This document shows, one piece after another, positions 19,290 to 25,570 of a stretch of 29,075 nucleotides of DNA. A program made the translations under genes and the position numbers. The notes under the pieces were generated by a model that saw only the letters and a list, made by a program, of their open reading frames with translations, had not been told where the DNA came from and ran no database searches. The stretch lies in IMG/VR virus record IMGVR_UViG_3300009285_000893, positions 1-29,075 of that record; one strand, written 5' to 3'. Every line of letters begins with the position of its first letter. The stretch's first letter is position 1. This DNA is from a virus.

Positions 19290-19471
19290 ACCCACCCGTT
19301 AATCACTTCTTGCGAAGTCCGTATTTTTATTTTAAACATGCTCTCGAGCTCCACCCGATAATCAAGTATTCCGGCATCTAGAGTTATGAACACATCAGCT
19401 CCCACTTTACTGGCGGCCTTAAGCTGATTTAGGCTATCCATCCCATATACATCAATATATGATGTCTTCAT
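19286..19471 (-). CDS. Short PIN-like protein (C-terminal half of the fold)
   Basis: The 61-residue product starts at ATG 19471 with GGAGG 5 nt upstream and overlaps the radical SAM stop. Its sequence K-V-G-A-D-V-F-I-T-L-D-A-G-I-L-D-Y-R followed by K-I-K-I-R-T-S-Q-E-V-I matches the last third of PIN-domain proteins, where an A-D-x-x-I-T-x-D motif supplies acidic residues of the RNase site. The N-terminal part with the first catalytic Asp is missing, and I see no fragment of it upstream, where the radical SAM gene is intact. It may be a degraded toxin, an antitoxin-like decoy or an unrelated small fold. Confidence 0.6.
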   Translation of the reverse strand: MKTSYIDVYGMDSLNQLKAASKVGADVFITLDAGILDYRVELESMFKIKIRTSQEVINGWV

Positions 19472-20712
19472 TGACTCCTCCGCGCGAAATACTCGCCCCT
19501 CCTAATTTGTGCCAGTTCATGCATGCTAATCATGTCGTCCTCGCTCATCCTATCGTGCTCGAACAGTATCGGGACATCATGAGATTTATTGGCGTGATGC
19601 GCCATTGTGTCCCATCCCGGCTTGAGTTTGATTCCGTACTTCTCCGGGTTCGTAGTGAATGGCGTTCCGGGATACGGGGCGTACATGTAGTAGTCCCAAT
19701 CCTTGAAGTCCAGCTCGTTTATTGCATCGAGAGTCCTCAATATGTCATTTACCGTCTGGCCTGGAAGTCCTATGATGAAGTAGGCTTTCACGCCGATCCC
19801 GGCATCATTGCACCACTTCCACGCCTTTTTTTGAACATCCCATATTTTGCCTGTTCCTGCGCGTTTAGTGACTTCATCATTGATGCATTCGCCGCCGAAG
19901 CACAATTCCGTACATCCACTTTCCGCTAGTGCTTTGATGACTTCCTTATTAAGTAGGTCGCTGCGTGTAGTCGCTCTATATTTGAAATCGTAACCCCTTT
20001 CTTTCATGCTTTGTGCAATACTCAAGCTTCTTTTGGTGTTGAATGTGAAAACGTCGTCATAGAATATGAGTGCGGTTTTTCCCATCTCATTCCTGATGTA
20101 ATCCAGTTCATTCAGTACGTGCTCTGCGCTGTTGCTTCTGAACGTGCGATTGTTGATGGACTGATGGCAGAATCCGCAACCAAAAGAGCAACCACGACTT
20201 GTCATGATGTTTGCGGCAGGCCGATTATTATATCTTAGGTTGTAATCATTCCAGTGCGCCCGTATGGATTCCCGGTCAGGCATTCCGTACTGGTCTAGAT
20301 TTTGTGCGTAATTGCCACGATAAACGACTTCTTTGGCCTGTCCTTTCATGATATCCTTGATCAAGTTGAGTATTGCGGTCTCATTCTCTCCTTTAATGAT
20401 GTGGTCGAAGTATGGAAGGCCATGGGTGTTGTGTGTTACTGCCGGTCCAGCGGCTGCCGTGATGGCACCAAAACTTTTGGCTGATTTAGCTATACCAATA
20501 GAGACTTTCGTGTGAACCGTTGGGAACCCCACTATTACGATGTCACCTACGGATATTTGGGGTAGAAACACTTGATGATTAAGATCAGTGACTTTCACAT
20601 TCATTATTCCGTTTTTTTTCAACCAACTGCTTATACTGAGAGGTGCGAGAGGCATTATCAATCCAGGGTTTTCAAGTAAGCCTTGATCTGATGGAACAAT
20701 AAGGTGTATCAT
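19468..20712 (-). CDS. Radical SAM enzyme with N-terminal cobalamin-binding-like domain
   Basis: The 414-residue product contains C-S-F-G-C-G-F-C at residues 175-182, the CxxxCxxC site for a 4Fe-4S cluster. Y-D-D-V-F-T-F, F-G-G-E-C-I-N-D and I-G-L-P-G-Q-T downstream are typical radical SAM barrel segments. Residues 1-135 look like a Rossmann-type B12-binding domain (D-I-V-I-V-G-F-P-T-V-H and F-D-H-I-I-K-G-E-N-E-T), though the cobalamin-coordinating DxHxxG is not seen. Such class B enzymes methylate or otherwise modify unreactive carbons. The gene overlaps both neighbours and lies between terminase and portal, an odd place for a metabolic enzyme. The substrate is unknown; modification of a capsid protein, lipid, glycan or nucleic acid are all possible. 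Confidence 0.87.
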   Translation of the reverse strand: MIHLIVPSDQGLLENPGLIMPLAPLSISSWLKKNGIMNVKVTDLNHQVFLPQISVGDIVIVGFPTVHTKVSIGIAKSAKSFGAITAAAGPAVTHNTHGLPYFDHIIKGENETAILNLIKDIMKGQAKEVVYRGNYAQNLDQYGMPDRESIRAHWNDYNLRYNNRPAANIMTSRGCSFGCGFCHQSINNRTFRSNSAEHVLNELDYIRNEMGKTALIFYDDVFTFNTKRSLSIAQSMKERGYDFKYRATTRSDLLNKEVIKALAESGCTELCFGGECINDEVTKRAGTGKIWDVQKKAWKWCNDAGIGVKAYFIIGLPGQTVNDILRTLDAINELDFKDWDYYMYAPYPGTPFTTNPEKYGIKLKPGWDTMAHHANKSHDVPILFEHDRMSEDDMISMHELAQIRRGEYFARRSQ

Positions 20713-20915: not shown

Positions 20916-21358
20916 TTTGTCACCTTCGGGTTGAGCGCCCGGTTTATCAATTCCACATCTTCTTTGCTGATCCTGTAATTGTCAGTCTGATTCAACACTA
21001 CAATCTTGATTTCTACTGGCTTGATAATGAGCGCGCTGGAGGCGTCCTGTGAACTTGGCGGTTCCAGGACTCTCGCATCGATCGTGGGGTGGTTTAGGTC
21101 CGAGAAGAAGGCGATTGCCGCCAGCGCGAGCATGATGAGGGTGAGTATGGCTAGGGATGCGGTCAACGGAAGAATCCCGGTTCGGGTTCCGTTGACCGCA
21201 TCTTTAGCCCTGCTCTCATGTGGAGGAGGCTGATGCAAAACAGCCTTATTCCATGAATTGAGCAGAGTGTCGAATGAATTCTGGAAAGCCCTGTCACTAT
21301 CATTGATGCGCATGCTTCTCCAGGTGTTGAATTGTGACTGTAATTTCGGAACCGCCAT
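20909..21358 (-). CDS. Single-pass membrane protein whose gene holds a large inverted repeat
   Basis: The 149-residue product has a polar helical N-terminal half (F-D-T-L-L-N-S-W-N-K-A), a transmembrane helix at about residues 65-87 (A-I-L-T-L-I-M-L-A-L-A-A-I-A-F-F) and a C-terminal soluble part ending I-S-K-E-D-V-E-L-I-N-R-A-L-N-P. Codons 53-68, just before the helix, lie on a perfect 16-bp inverted repeat (21156-21202). The ATG has no Shine-Dalgarno sequence but sits 29-30 nt after a TATA box, so it is probably leaderless. The function is unknown. It opens the unit that contains the radical SAM enzyme. Confidence 0.72.
   Translation of the reverse strand: MAVPKLQSQFNTWRSMRINDSDRAFQNSFDTLLNSWNKAVLHQPPPHESRAKDAVNGTRTGILPLTASLAILTLIMLALAAIAFFSDLNHPTIDARVLEPPSSQDASSALIIKPVEIKIVVLNQTDNYRISKEDVELINRALNPKVTKW
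21156..21202. repeat. Perfect 16-bp inverted repeat with 15-nt loop
   Basis: Arms GATGCGGTCAACGGAA (21156-21171) and TTCCGTTGACCGCATC (21187-21202) are exact reverse complements around a 15-base loop that itself contains CCCG and CGGG. The element lies inside a membrane-protein gene, and in both orientations it encodes D-A-V-N-G at one end and P-L-T-A-S at the other. It could form a stable RNA hairpin or a cruciform. Confidence 0.9.
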
Positions 21359-21383
21359 CCCGCTATTACTGACGTTTTTTTAA

Positions 21384-21391
21384 GTATTTAA
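21384..21391 (-). promoter_or_regulatory. Archaeal TATA box candidate upstream of the 149-aa membrane protein
   Basis: TTAAATAC is centred 29-30 nt before ATG 21358 and is followed by TTAAAAA. The 15-mer ATTAAATACTTAAAA recurs before the membrane-protein gene at 26545. There is no Shine-Dalgarno before the ATG, so a leaderless transcript is likely. Confidence 0.65.
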
Positions 21392-21400
21392 TTATTATCA

Positions 21401-23596
21401 TTACGCGATATGAAAGCTACCTTTCCTTCCCATCTTAAGAGGCCATGCTGCCAATACCAAAGCGTCGCAATTATGTACCAATATGTTATTAGCGAAGTAT
21501 TCAGGCTTTCCTTCCACCTTTATGTTGTACACTCTTTCGATTGAACGCCGCGCATGATAACGAGCAGTGATTGACTTTTGAATACGCATATGTGATAAAC
21601 GATCCTTTGCAATGTGCGCAAACCCGGAGTTGTTTGTGTTCAATTCGGTATTGCTTTTGCCCACATGATGAGGAGCAGAACTTCCCTGATTGTTGTCTGG
21701 AATTATCGAGAAATTTTTTATTGCACAATACGCATGTCTTGACTGTGGGTTTGCTATTTTTCCATGATATCTTTCCGAGATTCTTATGGAATTTTCTACC
21801 GGCTTCTGACTTATGCCACTTGATCGCTGCTGGTTGGGCATACTTGGCCATAAATTGTCGTGAAGCTTCGATTCGCTCTGGATAGTTGGAATGTATTGTA
21901 GCATGCTGTTTCCTGGACATGAGTTCAAGATTTGTGATCGTGTTGTTGTCTGGATTGTTGTCTTTATGGTGTACCAGATATCCTTTAGGTGTTGGGCCAT
22001 TATTGTCAATCCATATCTGCCGATGCAGTGGGACTGGGGCTTTTTTCCATTTCGTGTGAGACCAGTAATATAATCTATGTTGTCGGCGTTTGGCGTTGGG
22101 GTATCGGTGATAGGCCGCACCATTATGCATGATTGTTTCTCGTTCCATATGTATGTTAAGTCGGATGCGCTTATATTTATAAGTTTCTTAATTCCGTCAG
22201 TAGTTAATACCGGATGCTCTGGTGTTCCAGTTAATCCAAAACGGGTTATGACTTCGGCCATTCTATTATTGACTGCTACAATCCTATGGAATCCGTCCCT
22301 TGTCCGTACCCAATCCCCCACATGAAGTTTCTCTATTGGAACCTGTCCACGAACGGTCAGAACTAGAGTTCCAGCCGCGAAACATAAGTCATCGTGTCCG
22401 CCGTCGGGATGGTGTATTTTGACGCATTGGCTCGTGACCTCCTTACGAAGGTCTAGGAGTTGCGCGATCAGCAACCGATGGTTTGGGATCGTGAGGTGCC
22501 TTTTCTCAAACAAGACAGTCAGGTTGGAGTATAGATCGTACTTGCTTTGGTTAGTGAAAGTTATGCCTTCCACTGGGCATTCAGCCTGCTCCTTCAATAG
22601 GTCTACTGGTCCGGCTCCCATTCCTGTCTCATCGACCATTATGCGTCTGAAGTTGAAACTGGAGTGAAGTTCCTTGATTCGGCCTATCGTCCAGGTGACT
22701 GGCTTGCCATTGTAGTGCTCAACGTGAAATACTTTATGAGGATGCAGTGGATGTTCTGATTCCTCTACAATCACTAGCGCGGTGTCGTCCTCTCCGTATC
22801 TTGCTATGTCGACTCCGAGGTAGTAATTTAGGTCCGGTCTTATTTGACCAGTTGGGTGGGGTGTGATGTTTCCTAGTACGTCAGCGTCCCTGAAGTAACT
22901 GTCTGTTCCTTCGATGAACTCGAGTCCGAACTCGGTTCTGAAGTCTGCCTCAGTATGGGTGATCTTGTACTCATCTATGAATCCCGGCGCGTATAGGCCG
23001 CAATCTTGAGGGTAGCTATAATCGAATGCGAACAGCTTGTATGGGCTGCTTTGACCATATGCGCTCCGATAAAAATGCCCTTTGAGGTGTGGCGTGCCGA
23101 TCTTGATGATTATCGCATCTGGCTTGCTTGCGATCATTGGCATGATGACCTGACTGTCGATGCTGTCCTTGATAAAAGACGCTTCCTCCTCGATTATTAA
23201 ATCGGCGGTGAATCCCCTTTTGGTCTCCCCGTAATCACCCACCGTTAGGGCCTGTATGGTTGTGCCTTGGTTTAGCACGATCTGCGATGTTGTCATGCTC
23301 GATACTATCCATTTGAGCTCCTTATTGTACCGGAAGTAGTCGCTTATTTTCTTGAACAGTATCTCGCTCTGTTGCTGTGTCGGGGCGAATATCAGCACGT
23401 TCTTCTCTGTGTGAGTGACGCTATACCAGACGCAGAACGCAGCGCAACATGTAGTCTTGCCGGATTGACGGCTAAATAATCCAACCACCCTATTGTTTGT
23501 GTTGCATCCAGTGATGAAGTCGGCTTGATACTGATAGGGTTTGAAGTTTAGCACTCCTTCTATGAAGTCCAGAGGTTCCTCAAATGCTTCGGGCAT
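21401..23596 (-). CDS. terL: Large terminase subunit interrupted by an intein
   Basis: The 731-residue precursor has a terminase ATPase domain: F-S-R-Q-S-G-K-T-T at residues 41-49 (Walker A), D-L-I-I-E-E-E-A at 132-139 (Walker B with catalytic Glu), and K-I-G-T-P near 165 (coupling motif). The RNase-H-like nuclease follows, with V-D-I-A-R-Y-G at 262, V-D-E-T-G-M-G at 321 and G-H-D-D-L at 400-404. After residue 404 a 305-residue intein intervenes, and C-D-A-L-V-L-A-A-W resumes at 710. Removing the intein gives about 426 residues with an intact H-D-D-L-C-D-A-L nuclease motif. The enzyme cuts and pumps viral DNA into the prohead. ATG 23596 overlaps the previous zinc-protein gene. Confidence 0.93.
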   Translation of the reverse strand: MPEAFEEPLDFIEGVLNFKPYQYQADFITGCNTNNRVVGLFSRQSGKTTCCAAFCVWYSVTHTEKNVLIFAPTQQQSEILFKKISDYFRYNKELKWIVSSMTTSQIVLNQGTTIQALTVGDYGETKRGFTADLIIEEEASFIKDSIDSQVIMPMIASKPDAIIIKIGTPHLKGHFYRSAYGQSSPYKLFAFDYSYPQDCGLYAPGFIDEYKITHTEADFRTEFGLEFIEGTDSYFRDADVLGNITPHPTGQIRPDLNYYLGVDIARYGEDDTALVIVEESEHPLHPHKVFHVEHYNGKPVTWTIGRIKELHSSFNFRRIMVDETGMGAGPVDLLKEQAECPVEGITFTNQSKYDLYSNLTVLFEKRHLTIPNHRLLIAQLLDLRKEVTSQCVKIHHPDGGHDDLCFAAGTLVLTVRGQVPIEKLHVGDWVRTRDGFHRIVAVNNRMAEVITRFGLTGTPEHPVLTTDGIKKLINISASDLTYIWNEKQSCIMVRPITDTPTPNADNIDYITGLTRNGKKPQSHCIGRYGLTIMAQHLKDIWYTIKTTIQTTTRSQILNSCPGNSMLQYIPTIQSESKLHDNLWPSMPNQQRSSGISQKPVENSIRISERYHGKIANPQSRHAYCAIKNFSIIPDNNQGSSAPHHVGKSNTELNTNNSGFAHIAKDRLSHMRIQKSITARYHARRSIERVYNIKVEGKPEYFANNILVHNCDALVLAAWPLKMGRKGSFHIA
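21501..22148 (-). CDS. HNH homing endonuclease nested out of frame inside the intein
   Basis: The 215-residue product is in a different frame from the terminase. Residues 40-85 contain L-H-R-Q-I-W, then Y-L-V-H-H-K-D-N-N-P-D-N-N and N-L-E-L-M-S-R-K-Q-H, the full HNH core with His60-His61, Asn69 and His82. Two Cys4 zinc fingers follow: C139-x2-C142 with C158-x3-C162, and C177-x2-C180 with C195-x3-C199. These are strong domain signals, so this is the real endonuclease, and it would cut the intein-less terminase allele for homing. Its 3-prime end overlaps the codons for block F of the intein. A TATA box lies 30 nt upstream of ATG 22148; ATG 22130 is an alternative start. Confidence 0.9.
   Translation of the reverse strand: MERETIMHNGAAYHRYPNAKRRQHRLYYWSHTKWKKAPVPLHRQIWIDNNGPTPKGYLVHHKDNNPDNNTITNLELMSRKQHATIHSNYPERIEASRQFMAKYAQPAAIKWHKSEAGRKFHKNLGKISWKNSKPTVKTCVLCNKKFLDNSRQQSGKFCSSSCGQKQYRIEHKQLRVCAHCKGSFITYAYSKVNHCSLSCAAFNRKSVQHKGGRKA
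22174..22182 (-). promoter_or_regulatory. Intein-internal archaeal TATA box for the nested HNH gene
   Basis: TTATAAATA on the minus strand is centred 30 nt before ATG 22148. Archaeal transcription starts about 26-27 nt from the box centre, so the message would begin 2-4 bases before the ATG. The same bases encode L-I-N-I in the intein, just after the N-terminal splicing blocks, where sequence is probably free to vary. Confidence 0.6.
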
Positions 23597-23861: not shown

Positions 23862-24304
23862 TTCTTTGCCTCCCGAGCCTTAAAAGCCTCCTGAGTCCTC
23901 CGAAGTGCCTCCTTGAATGCGATCTCACCATCCAACTGAACCTCAACCTTACTTGCGATCGTGGGCTTAAGGTTCCACTTCTCCAAACACTCCGTGTAGT
24001 GAGTGTTACACTGAACGAGCGCCTGGGTCGCTTTGCTCTTCTCGGTTTTACTGCTTTCTGGGTCTCGTATTATCTTGCGCATCTCCCCAATGGCCGATTT
24101 GTATCCATTCTGTAATTCTTGAGCCACCACATTAATGTCGTCTTGTGGCATGTGGGTCATGATGAGCTTGATGTCTTTATCGAGTGTTGGCCTGCCTATT
24201 CCCCATTCTGTGCATATGGCTTGCTTGGGTATTCCCCATATGCCGTACCGTTCTATTAGGTCTTTGACCTTTTCTCGGCGTTCTGCTCCGTTCATGCTTG
24301 GCAT
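23858..24304 (-). CDS. terS: Small terminase subunit
   Basis: The start is chosen at ATG 24304 (MPSMNGAERREKVKDLIERY), which has GAGG 5 nt upstream and overlaps the end of the methyltransferase gene by 13 nt; ATG 24295 is an ATGA-coupled alternative. The product of about 148 residues has an N-terminal helix-turn-helix (K-Q-A-I-C-T-E-W-G-I-G-R-P-T-L-D-K-D-I), a long central helical region and a basic, charged C-terminus. This is the pattern of small terminases, which bind the packaging site and feed DNA to the large subunit. It lies one small gene upstream of the large subunit. Assignment rests on HTH, size and position. Confidence 0.8.
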   Translation of the reverse strand: MPSMNGAERREKVKDLIERYGIWGIPKQAICTEWGIGRPTLDKDIKLIMTHMPQDDINVVAQELQNGYKSAIGEMRKIIRDPESSKTEKSKATQALVQCNTHYTECLEKWNLKPTIASKVEVQLDGEIAFKEALRRTQEAFKAREAKK

Positions 24305-25509
24305 GTGATCCTCTGGGCTTTCTTTCCGGTGTATTGTTCCCATCTTTTGATTATGATATCACAATATTTAGGGTCAAGTTCAATCATGCGGCACCTACGG
24401 CCAGTTTGCTCACACGCTATGAGTGTGCTTCCTGATCCGCCGAATGGGTCTAGCACGATATCTCTTGATAGGCTGCTATTCAGGATTGCTTTCCTAAGAA
24501 TAGATACTGGTTTCATGGTTGGGTGTTCCATACTAGAGTTTGGTCTTGAGAACTCCCAAAGGTCATTTTGTGATCTGCCACCATGATAACTTGACTTTCG
24601 TCCTTTCTTCCATCCATATAGTATCGGCTCGAAACGGCGATGGTAGTTCCCTCTACTCATCACGAAACGGTTTTTTGCCCATATGATTGTGGAGCTCCAG
24701 TGGCCCCCTAGCTTGTTGAACGATGCATTGATGGTCGGCCACTCTGCACAACTCATGAATATGTAGATATCTCCTTGTGACCTGTTGAGCGCTTCCGTCA
24801 TGTAGGCATCTGTGAAGTCACTCCATTGCTGCGCATTGAGTGAATCATTGAGTATCTGCCTCTTTTTGTACTTCGAATTATTTTGAGATCCGTAATTGAC
24901 GTTGTAAGGAGGATCAGTAAGCGTCATATGCGGATTCTCCCCCCCCAAGACATCATCGTATGATTTCGGAACAGTACTATCACGACATACCAGAACGTGA
25001 TCCCCTAAGCGTATTACGTCTCCTTCTTTGGCGGTGGGGATTTCTATCTTGTCATATTCTTCATCCGCATCGAAATCTTCCTCAGCATTCTCATCTTTTG
25101 GGATATCGAATGCCTTGAGCAGTTCTTCCTTATCTATCGCGATCAAGTCCTCAAAATCATTCATGCGGTCAGCTGCCATGATTGCCTTATACTCATCCAC
25201 ATCCTTGAATACATCATGCTCCCCCCTGAGTTTGTTTAGTACTTGACGAAGCATCTGCCTATCCACTTCACCCACATCCAGAACGATAGTTGGAATCTCA
25301 GTCATTCCCAATTCAACACCAGCCCGATACCGATGTTCTCCGTCAGCGATCACGCCATCCTTATTTGTGATGATTGGGTGGAGGAATCCGTATGTCAGTA
25401 TGTTCTTCTTAAGACTCTCAAACTGTCGCTCCGTCATATCGTTTGGGTTGGATTCATCTATCTTGATCCATCCGGCTTGCACGTTCTTTACTTCTGGGAT
25501 GCTTACCAT
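24292..25509 (-). CDS. ParB-like domain fused to a beta-class DNA methyltransferase
   Basis: ATG 25509 has GGAGG 5 nt upstream; an in-frame ATG at 25521 is less well placed. Numbering from the longer start, residues 15-130 are a ParB/sulfiredoxin-type domain with D-G-E-H-R-Y-R-A-G at 60-68. The rest is an N4/N6-type methyltransferase: L-T-D-P-P-Y at 201-206 (motif IV), H-P-T-M-K-P at 333-338, and D-P-F-G-G-S-G-S-T at 358-366 (motif I, SAM binding). Motif IV precedes motif I, the beta-class order. An acidic linker at 142-158 joins the halves. Such fusions are common in viruses and mobile elements, where they modify viral DNA against host restriction or control replication. No restriction nuclease gene is adjacent. 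Confidence 0.9.
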   Translation of the reverse strand: MVSIPEVKNVQAGWIKIDESNPNDMTERQFESLKKNILTYGFLHPIITNKDGVIADGEHRYRAGVELGMTEIPTIVLDVGEVDRQMLRQVLNKLRGEHDVFKDVDEYKAIMAADRMNDFEDLIAIDKEELLKAFDIPKDENAEEDFDADEEYDKIEIPTAKEGDVIRLGDHVLVCRDSTVPKSYDDVLGGENPHMTLTDPPYNVNYGSQNNSKYKKRQILNDSLNAQQWSDFTDAYMTEALNRSQGDIYIFMSCAEWPTINASFNKLGGHWSSTIIWAKNRFVMSRGNYHRRFEPILYGWKKGRKSSYHGGRSQNDLWEFSRPNSSMEHPTMKPVSILRKAILNSSLSRDIVLDPFGGSGSTLIACEQTGRRCRMIELDPKYCDIIIKRWEQYTGKKAQRITCQA

Positions 25510-25570
25510 GATTGCCTCCATGAAAAATTGCCACCGAATGCTGGATCGGTAGCTACCCCCGTCTAAGCCA

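Follow-up and report, generated by a model that had tools for sequence, protein, structure and literature searches.

By the usual description, an intein either has a homing endonuclease in frame or has lost it. Split inteins that have a free-standing endonuclease gene between their two halves were reportedly described by Dassa et al. in 2009 as "fractured genes". An intein with an in-frame HNH_3 endonuclease occurs in the dCTP deaminase of phage CL131 (PMC6293099), and an HNH gene placed out of frame, in an insertion without splicing motifs, is known from the ShiLan element of a phage methylase (Arsenault, Gosselin, Gogarten 2025, PMC11855218). The element analysed here interrupts the gene of the terminase large subunit (TerL) in IMG/VR virus record IMGVR_UViG_3300009285_000893, whose positions 1 to 29,075 constitute the window of 29,075 nucleotides. 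Based on the collective evidence, it is understood as very probably a mobile TerL intein of tailed viruses whose homing endonuclease gene is placed in the -1 frame instead of being fused in frame. Our literature searches turned up no splicing intein described as having its endonuclease out of frame, with the limit that earlier mention in Dassa 2009 or in a Gosselin 2025 preprint (Actinobacteriophage inteins, non-canonical architecture) is not excluded. The parts of the locus are the following.

21401..23596, minus strand: TerL gene, a single open frame of 731 codons with the intein in frame
22385..23596, minus strand: N-extein of 404 residues, ending ...GGHDDL at the conserved TerL nuclease DD motif
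21470..22384, minus strand: intein of 305 codons (C1...HN305), followed by Cys as the +1 residue
22145..22384, minus strand: N-terminal Hint half with blocks A and B (intein residues 1-80), placed by Hint_2, model confidence and fold matches
21545..22144, minus strand: TerL-frame spacer over the HNH gene (intein residues 81-280), free of stops, predicted to be disordered, its residues not conserved
21470..21544, minus strand: C-terminal Hint half with blocks F and G (intein residues 281-305), ending ...YFANNILVHN
21401..21469, minus strand: C-extein (CDALVLAAW...)
21501..22148, minus strand: HNH endonuclease gene of 215 residues, in the -1 frame relative to TerL
22146..22148, minus strand: ATG start codon of the HNH gene
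21900..22028, minus strand: HNH_3 catalytic domain (HNH residues 41-83; HHKDNNPDNN...NL)
21663..21734, minus strand: first zinc-finger pair, CVLC...CSSSC (HNH residues 139-162), its cysteines near-invariant
21552..21620, minus strand: second zinc-finger pair, CAHC...CSLSC (HNH residues 177-199), placed by sequence
21501..21544, minus strand: DNA of dual function, encoding the final HNH codons with the stop and intein block F

The TerL frame matches Terminase_6N (5.3e-12), Terminase_6C (2.8e-8) and phrog_2 (4.6e-41) as well as the intein profiles Hint_2, Intein_splicing (below threshold) and the C-terminal splicing motif TIGR01443, and profile search detects no endonuclease family in it. Blocks A, B, F and G, Cys1, the penultimate His, the terminal Asn and a Cys at +1 are all present, as expected of a class 1 intein, and the insertion point is the conserved HDD..DA nuclease motif of TerL. 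The HNH frame matches HNH_3 at E=1.5e-14 and contains two CxxC...C zinc pairs, the combination by which an HNH homing endonuclease is recognised in sequence; H60, H61, D63, N69, N73 and H82 are invariant across the HNH alignment. Read in the TerL frame, the final HNH codons (VQHKGGRKA plus stop) give VYNIKVEGKPEY of block F, and the HNH stop thus falls inside that block. Synonymous shuffling of the HNH codons introduces a mean of 4.5 stops into the TerL frame, which stays open in 0 of 200 shuffles, and the third reading frame over the gene has 15 stops. An earlier note, made from this DNA alone, had anticipated much of the arrangement: in-frame splicing blocks with no in-frame endonuclease, a 215-codon HNH gene with two zinc-finger pairs in another frame, a TerL frame free of stops throughout, and last HNH codons that double as block F. 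All of this is borne out, as is its suspicion that similar stretches occur in other phage terminase inteins, of which about 148 non-redundant relatives were retrieved. The terminase profile of the PHROG family phrog_30251 appears to take in an intein together with its out-of-frame spacer; reference families may for that reason hide inteins of this kind.

Structure prediction by AlphaFold2, based on alignments of 35 relatives for the HNH frame and 38 relatives for the TerL-frame intein (two rows from annotated phage records were left out), separates the two readings of the same DNA. The HNH frame is modelled at a mean predicted local distance difference test (pLDDT) score of 94.2. In the TerL frame, intein residues 1-80 reach 85-98 per block, with the Hint domain at 94-98 for most blocks, and residues 281-305 reach 94-97; residues 81-280, the spacer over the HNH gene, score 33-59 and are predicted to be disordered. 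Only the two terminal segments are modelled as folded, and in a fold search they match solved inteins including gp41-1 and DnaB. According to the models, therefore, the window intein amounts to a mini-intein whose long, unstructured loop is an out-of-frame reading of the HNH gene.

Comparison with the described systems places the element between several of them. With canonical inteins such as PI-SceI and that of CL131 it shares the Hint domain, the position of the endonuclease between blocks B and F, and insertion into a conserved motif, yet its endonuclease is unfused and encoded as a separate protein by an overlapping frame. Like the fractured genes, it has an endonuclease gene with its own start between Hint halves in a phage gene; unlike them, the host frame is open across the entire insert, so that the intein forms one chain, with no need for trans-splicing or a second start. 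Group I introns that harbour an HNH gene resemble it in that an endonuclease is translated independently from within a self-splicing element, the difference being that removal by protein splicing obliges the host frame here to stay open. The ShiLan element comes close in having the HNH in another frame of a mobile insertion, a stop-free host frame and a host-frame product predicted to be unstructured. However, ShiLan has no splicing blocks and its spacer is thought to remain in the host protein (PMC11855218), whereas the complete Hint domain modelled around the HNH in the window should remove the spacer.

The arrangement is not peculiar to the window. Most of the closest HNH relatives found in IMG/VR likewise lie out of frame within an intein. 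To avoid bias, a survey blind to the HNH was based on inteins recruited via block A alone, and it gave 156 loci. Single loci, from this survey or from other searches, are numbered here with the prefix L. An HNH at the identical -1 offset was present in 145 of the 156 inteins; none had it in frame and none at the other offset. Another 9 are mini-inteins of 127-151 residues without an HNH, one is truncated and one (L170) has an in-frame LAGLIDADG-like region. The last provides a contrast case: a TerL-type intein with no HNH and an in-frame insert whose motifs (LAGWYLGDG) look LAGLIDADG-like by eye. L229, L165 and L245 retain shortened remnants of an HNH, again at the -1 offset. In the surveyed group of phage terminase inteins, the double-coding layout is thus the rule and not the exception. 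It is shared by Acinetobacter phage Highwayman, Tetrasphaera phage TJE1 and Rhodobacteraceae phage LS06-2018-MD07, and by five bacterial assemblies (Prevotellaceae, Bacteroides, Acidobacteria, Prevotella, Patescibacteria). An archaeal copy is present on plasmid pGSL19_54.9 of Halobacterium sp. GSL-19 (L372), which carries a portal gene and a Hint-domain terminase and is probably a provirus. Among cultured phages the out-of-frame HNH intein is rare, which may be why the layout has gone unnoticed.

Which of the two overlapping frames is under selection was read from the non-redundant embedded HNHs (n=148, of which 146 were usable for the stop count) and 24 non-embedded relatives. The TerL frame over the HNH has no stop in 146 of 146 embedded copies, where 15 would be expected to be open after synonymous shuffling, although loci recruited through the HNH were classed as embedded by their open host frame and their zero stops are partly by construction. 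At the block-A-recruited loci with an HNH, where the zero is not by construction, the host frame is broken in none. The equivalent frame of the non-embedded relatives has stops in 24 of 24 cases, at 4.3 per 100 codons. Divergence at the three codon positions is.417/.359/.608 in embedded HNHs and.414/.348/.604 in non-embedded ones, and amino-acid identity in the TerL frame over the overlap is.258 compared with.252 in the non-embedded HNHs, for which that frame is meaningless. Because the divergence is coding-like and equal to that of non-embedded genes while TerL-frame identity is no higher, the HNH codons are under normal purifying selection and the overlying TerL spacer need only stay free of stops. 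The full HH-D-N-NL motif is retained in 128 of the 148 embedded HNHs. The claim of the earlier note that both proteins constrain the same bases consequently stands in part: the double constraint is limited to block F, and elsewhere the amino-acid constraint is on the HNH frame only. The reverse pattern, a conserved TerL frame over a broken HNH, which the note had named as contrary evidence, was not seen, the HNH frame being the conserved one. The stop counts also bear on the constancy of the offset. Even in non-embedded genes of this HNH family, stops number about 4 per 100 codons at the out-of-frame offset in use, compared with about 9-11 at the other offset; these counts imply that realistically only one out-of-frame offset can stay open, and hence that a constant -1 offset needs no special mechanism.

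HNHs of the same family also occur in other settings. Free-standing members are located beside terL in PAE1, vB_EauM-23, FBPa53, Shemara and others, and further members lie between split-intein halves in L092 (Lactobacillus phage CL2), L099 (Vibrio phage 1.238.A), L033 and L067. In the split forms the host frame is broken by stops, yet the downstream half is found at the same -1 offset; these loci are apparently derivatives or relatives of the one-piece form. Grouped with them are L055, L262, L269 and L270, as TerL split inteins or loci of which only the downstream half is seen. The HNH tree shows embedded, free and split forms intermixed, with 13 changes among them and weak branch support. 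A free HNH, an overlapping HNH in a one-piece intein, a split intein and a mini-intein after HNH loss would form a putative series. The evidence taken together makes it likely that a large, unnamed class of viral inteins exists in phages and extends to at least one (pro)virus-like plasmid of a haloarchaeon, with the endonuclease always in the -1 frame. Dominant among this group of terminase inteins, the class would represent a missing link that connects mini-inteins with split "fractured" inteins and with HNH genes that stand free, loss of openness in the host frame giving rise to a split intein and deletion of the HNH to a mini-intein.

Mobility is suggested by how the element is distributed. 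Of the relatives of the window TerL examined at the insertion site, 64 of 65 have no intein there, empty sites reading for instance GHDDFVDALA (L293) and GFDDYVDALA (L292). L103 and L104, one pair of several, have HNHs that are 57% and Hint domains that are 71% identical, within TerL exteins that show no BLAST similarity to each other. For the window TerL itself, single-sequence search returned no close relatives, and an alignment-based search gave relatives at 20-37% identity, nearly all of them intein-free at the site. In L156, L162 and their relatives, the intein occupies a second site in TerL, flanked by the Terminase_6N stretch and a downstream DE motif, and not the nuclease DD..D motif. 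Sporadic presence, transfer between dissimilar TerLs and the second site would fit a homing element, and it is from this distribution only that we infer mobility.

The mechanism proposed combines two translation products of one DNA. Ribosomes in the TerL frame would make a 731-residue precursor, from which the Hint domain (intein residues 1-80 and 281-305) would excise the whole insert, including the unstructured spacer of about 200 residues, and rejoin TerL across the nuclease DD..D motif. Ribosomes starting at the internal HNH start codon would produce the 215-residue HNH zinc-finger endonuclease as a separate protein. The endonuclease would cut intein-free terL at the conserved motif, and repair would copy intein and HNH together. 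Protein splicing, in vivo initiation at the internal start, DNA cutting and homing are the proposed steps of this mechanism. For the translation step, a start codon is found in 147 of the 148 embedded HNHs, and an ATG near the HNH start is in the HNH frame in 112 of 148, compared with 22 and 40 in the other two frames. A Shine-Dalgarno match of at least 5 bases is located upstream of 21% of embedded HNHs, compared with 4% of background ATGs and 62% of non-embedded relatives. A stop in the HNH frame lies at most 12 codons upstream of the HNH in 95 of 148 copies, and -1 slippery heptamers upstream of it are not enriched (11/148 compared with 13/148 in the background). With the start ATG conserved, upstream stops common and slippery sites not enriched, internal initiation is the favoured route to the HNH protein.

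Several observations weigh against the proposed intein with its separately translated homing endonuclease. A Shine-Dalgarno match of at least 4 bases precedes only 38% of the copies, and the HNH start in the window has none; RNA folding detects no special structure at that start, which is located in a weakly structured region. L003/L004 and L180 have an embedded HNH without an ordinary start codon near its beginning, and may be decayed, start at a rare codon or be made by frameshifting. The HNH model gave no significant match to the PDB in Foldseek, and identification as a nuclease for this reason relies on the sequence families. Finally, no near-identical intein-free allele of the window TerL was found in the single-sequence and alignment-based searches.

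The missing Shine-Dalgarno match in the window and the three copies without an ordinary start codon would equally suit -1 programmed ribosomal frameshifting from the TerL frame, yielding a fusion of TerL, N-terminal Hint half and HNH in place of internal initiation, and the offset is always the one that a -1 shift can reach. Frameshifting is nevertheless unlikely in view of the background-level slippery heptamers, the upstream HNH-frame stops and the conserved ATG, and the constant offset is explained more simply by the density of stops at the other offset. HNH proteins can act in packaging, and a functional intein whose HNH serves the phage in such a way, and not in homing, would accord with the free-standing HNHs of the same family beside terL. 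We consider this improbable: sporadic presence, co-transfer with the intein between dissimilar TerLs and loss to give mini-inteins are better accounted for by homing. Displacement of a formerly in-frame HNH, as a decaying passenger, through assembly or sequencing indels or natural frameshifts has very little to recommend it. In-frame HNH_3 inteins do exist elsewhere, as CL131 exemplifies, but an identical offset at some 145 independent loci, with an in-frame HNH in none, excludes the assembly indel that the earlier note had allowed for and refutes an indel origin for the family as a whole, and the normal coding divergence and retained catalytic motif are not those of a decaying gene. Removal of the insert as RNA, by a group I intron with an HNH reading frame, the intein splicing motifs then reflecting decay or coincidence, is scarcely credible: phage introns of this group typically contain HNH genes and the ShiLan authors weighed the same option for their element (PMC11855218), but no Rfam intron matches 21300-22600 at E up to 1, the Hint domain with C1, HN305 and Cys+1 is modelled at high confidence, and translation of the insert is evident from the absence of stops in the TerL frame.

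The overlapping intein and HNH gene have importance in several respects. With inteins usually classed by whether an endonuclease is fused in frame or lost, annotation of protein frames calls these elements endonuclease-free although their HNH gene is intact. In this layout the two functions are uncoupled, the endonuclease being its own protein and the splicing precursor carrying a disposable spacer, and nature offers here a clear example of gene overlap where the sole demand on one frame is to lack stops. Split-intein origin and endonuclease invasion of inteins become testable from the sequence series. Hint domains that work despite an unstructured loop of about 200 residues would, if confirmed, be useful to intein engineers.

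Two neighbours of the terminase gene in the window, both on the minus strand, complete the description. A radical SAM protein (Pfam, 1.1e-23) is encoded at 19468-20712, adjoining the packaging genes, and a ParB_N domain fused to an N6/N4 DNA methylase is encoded at 24292-25521, closely upstream of terL.
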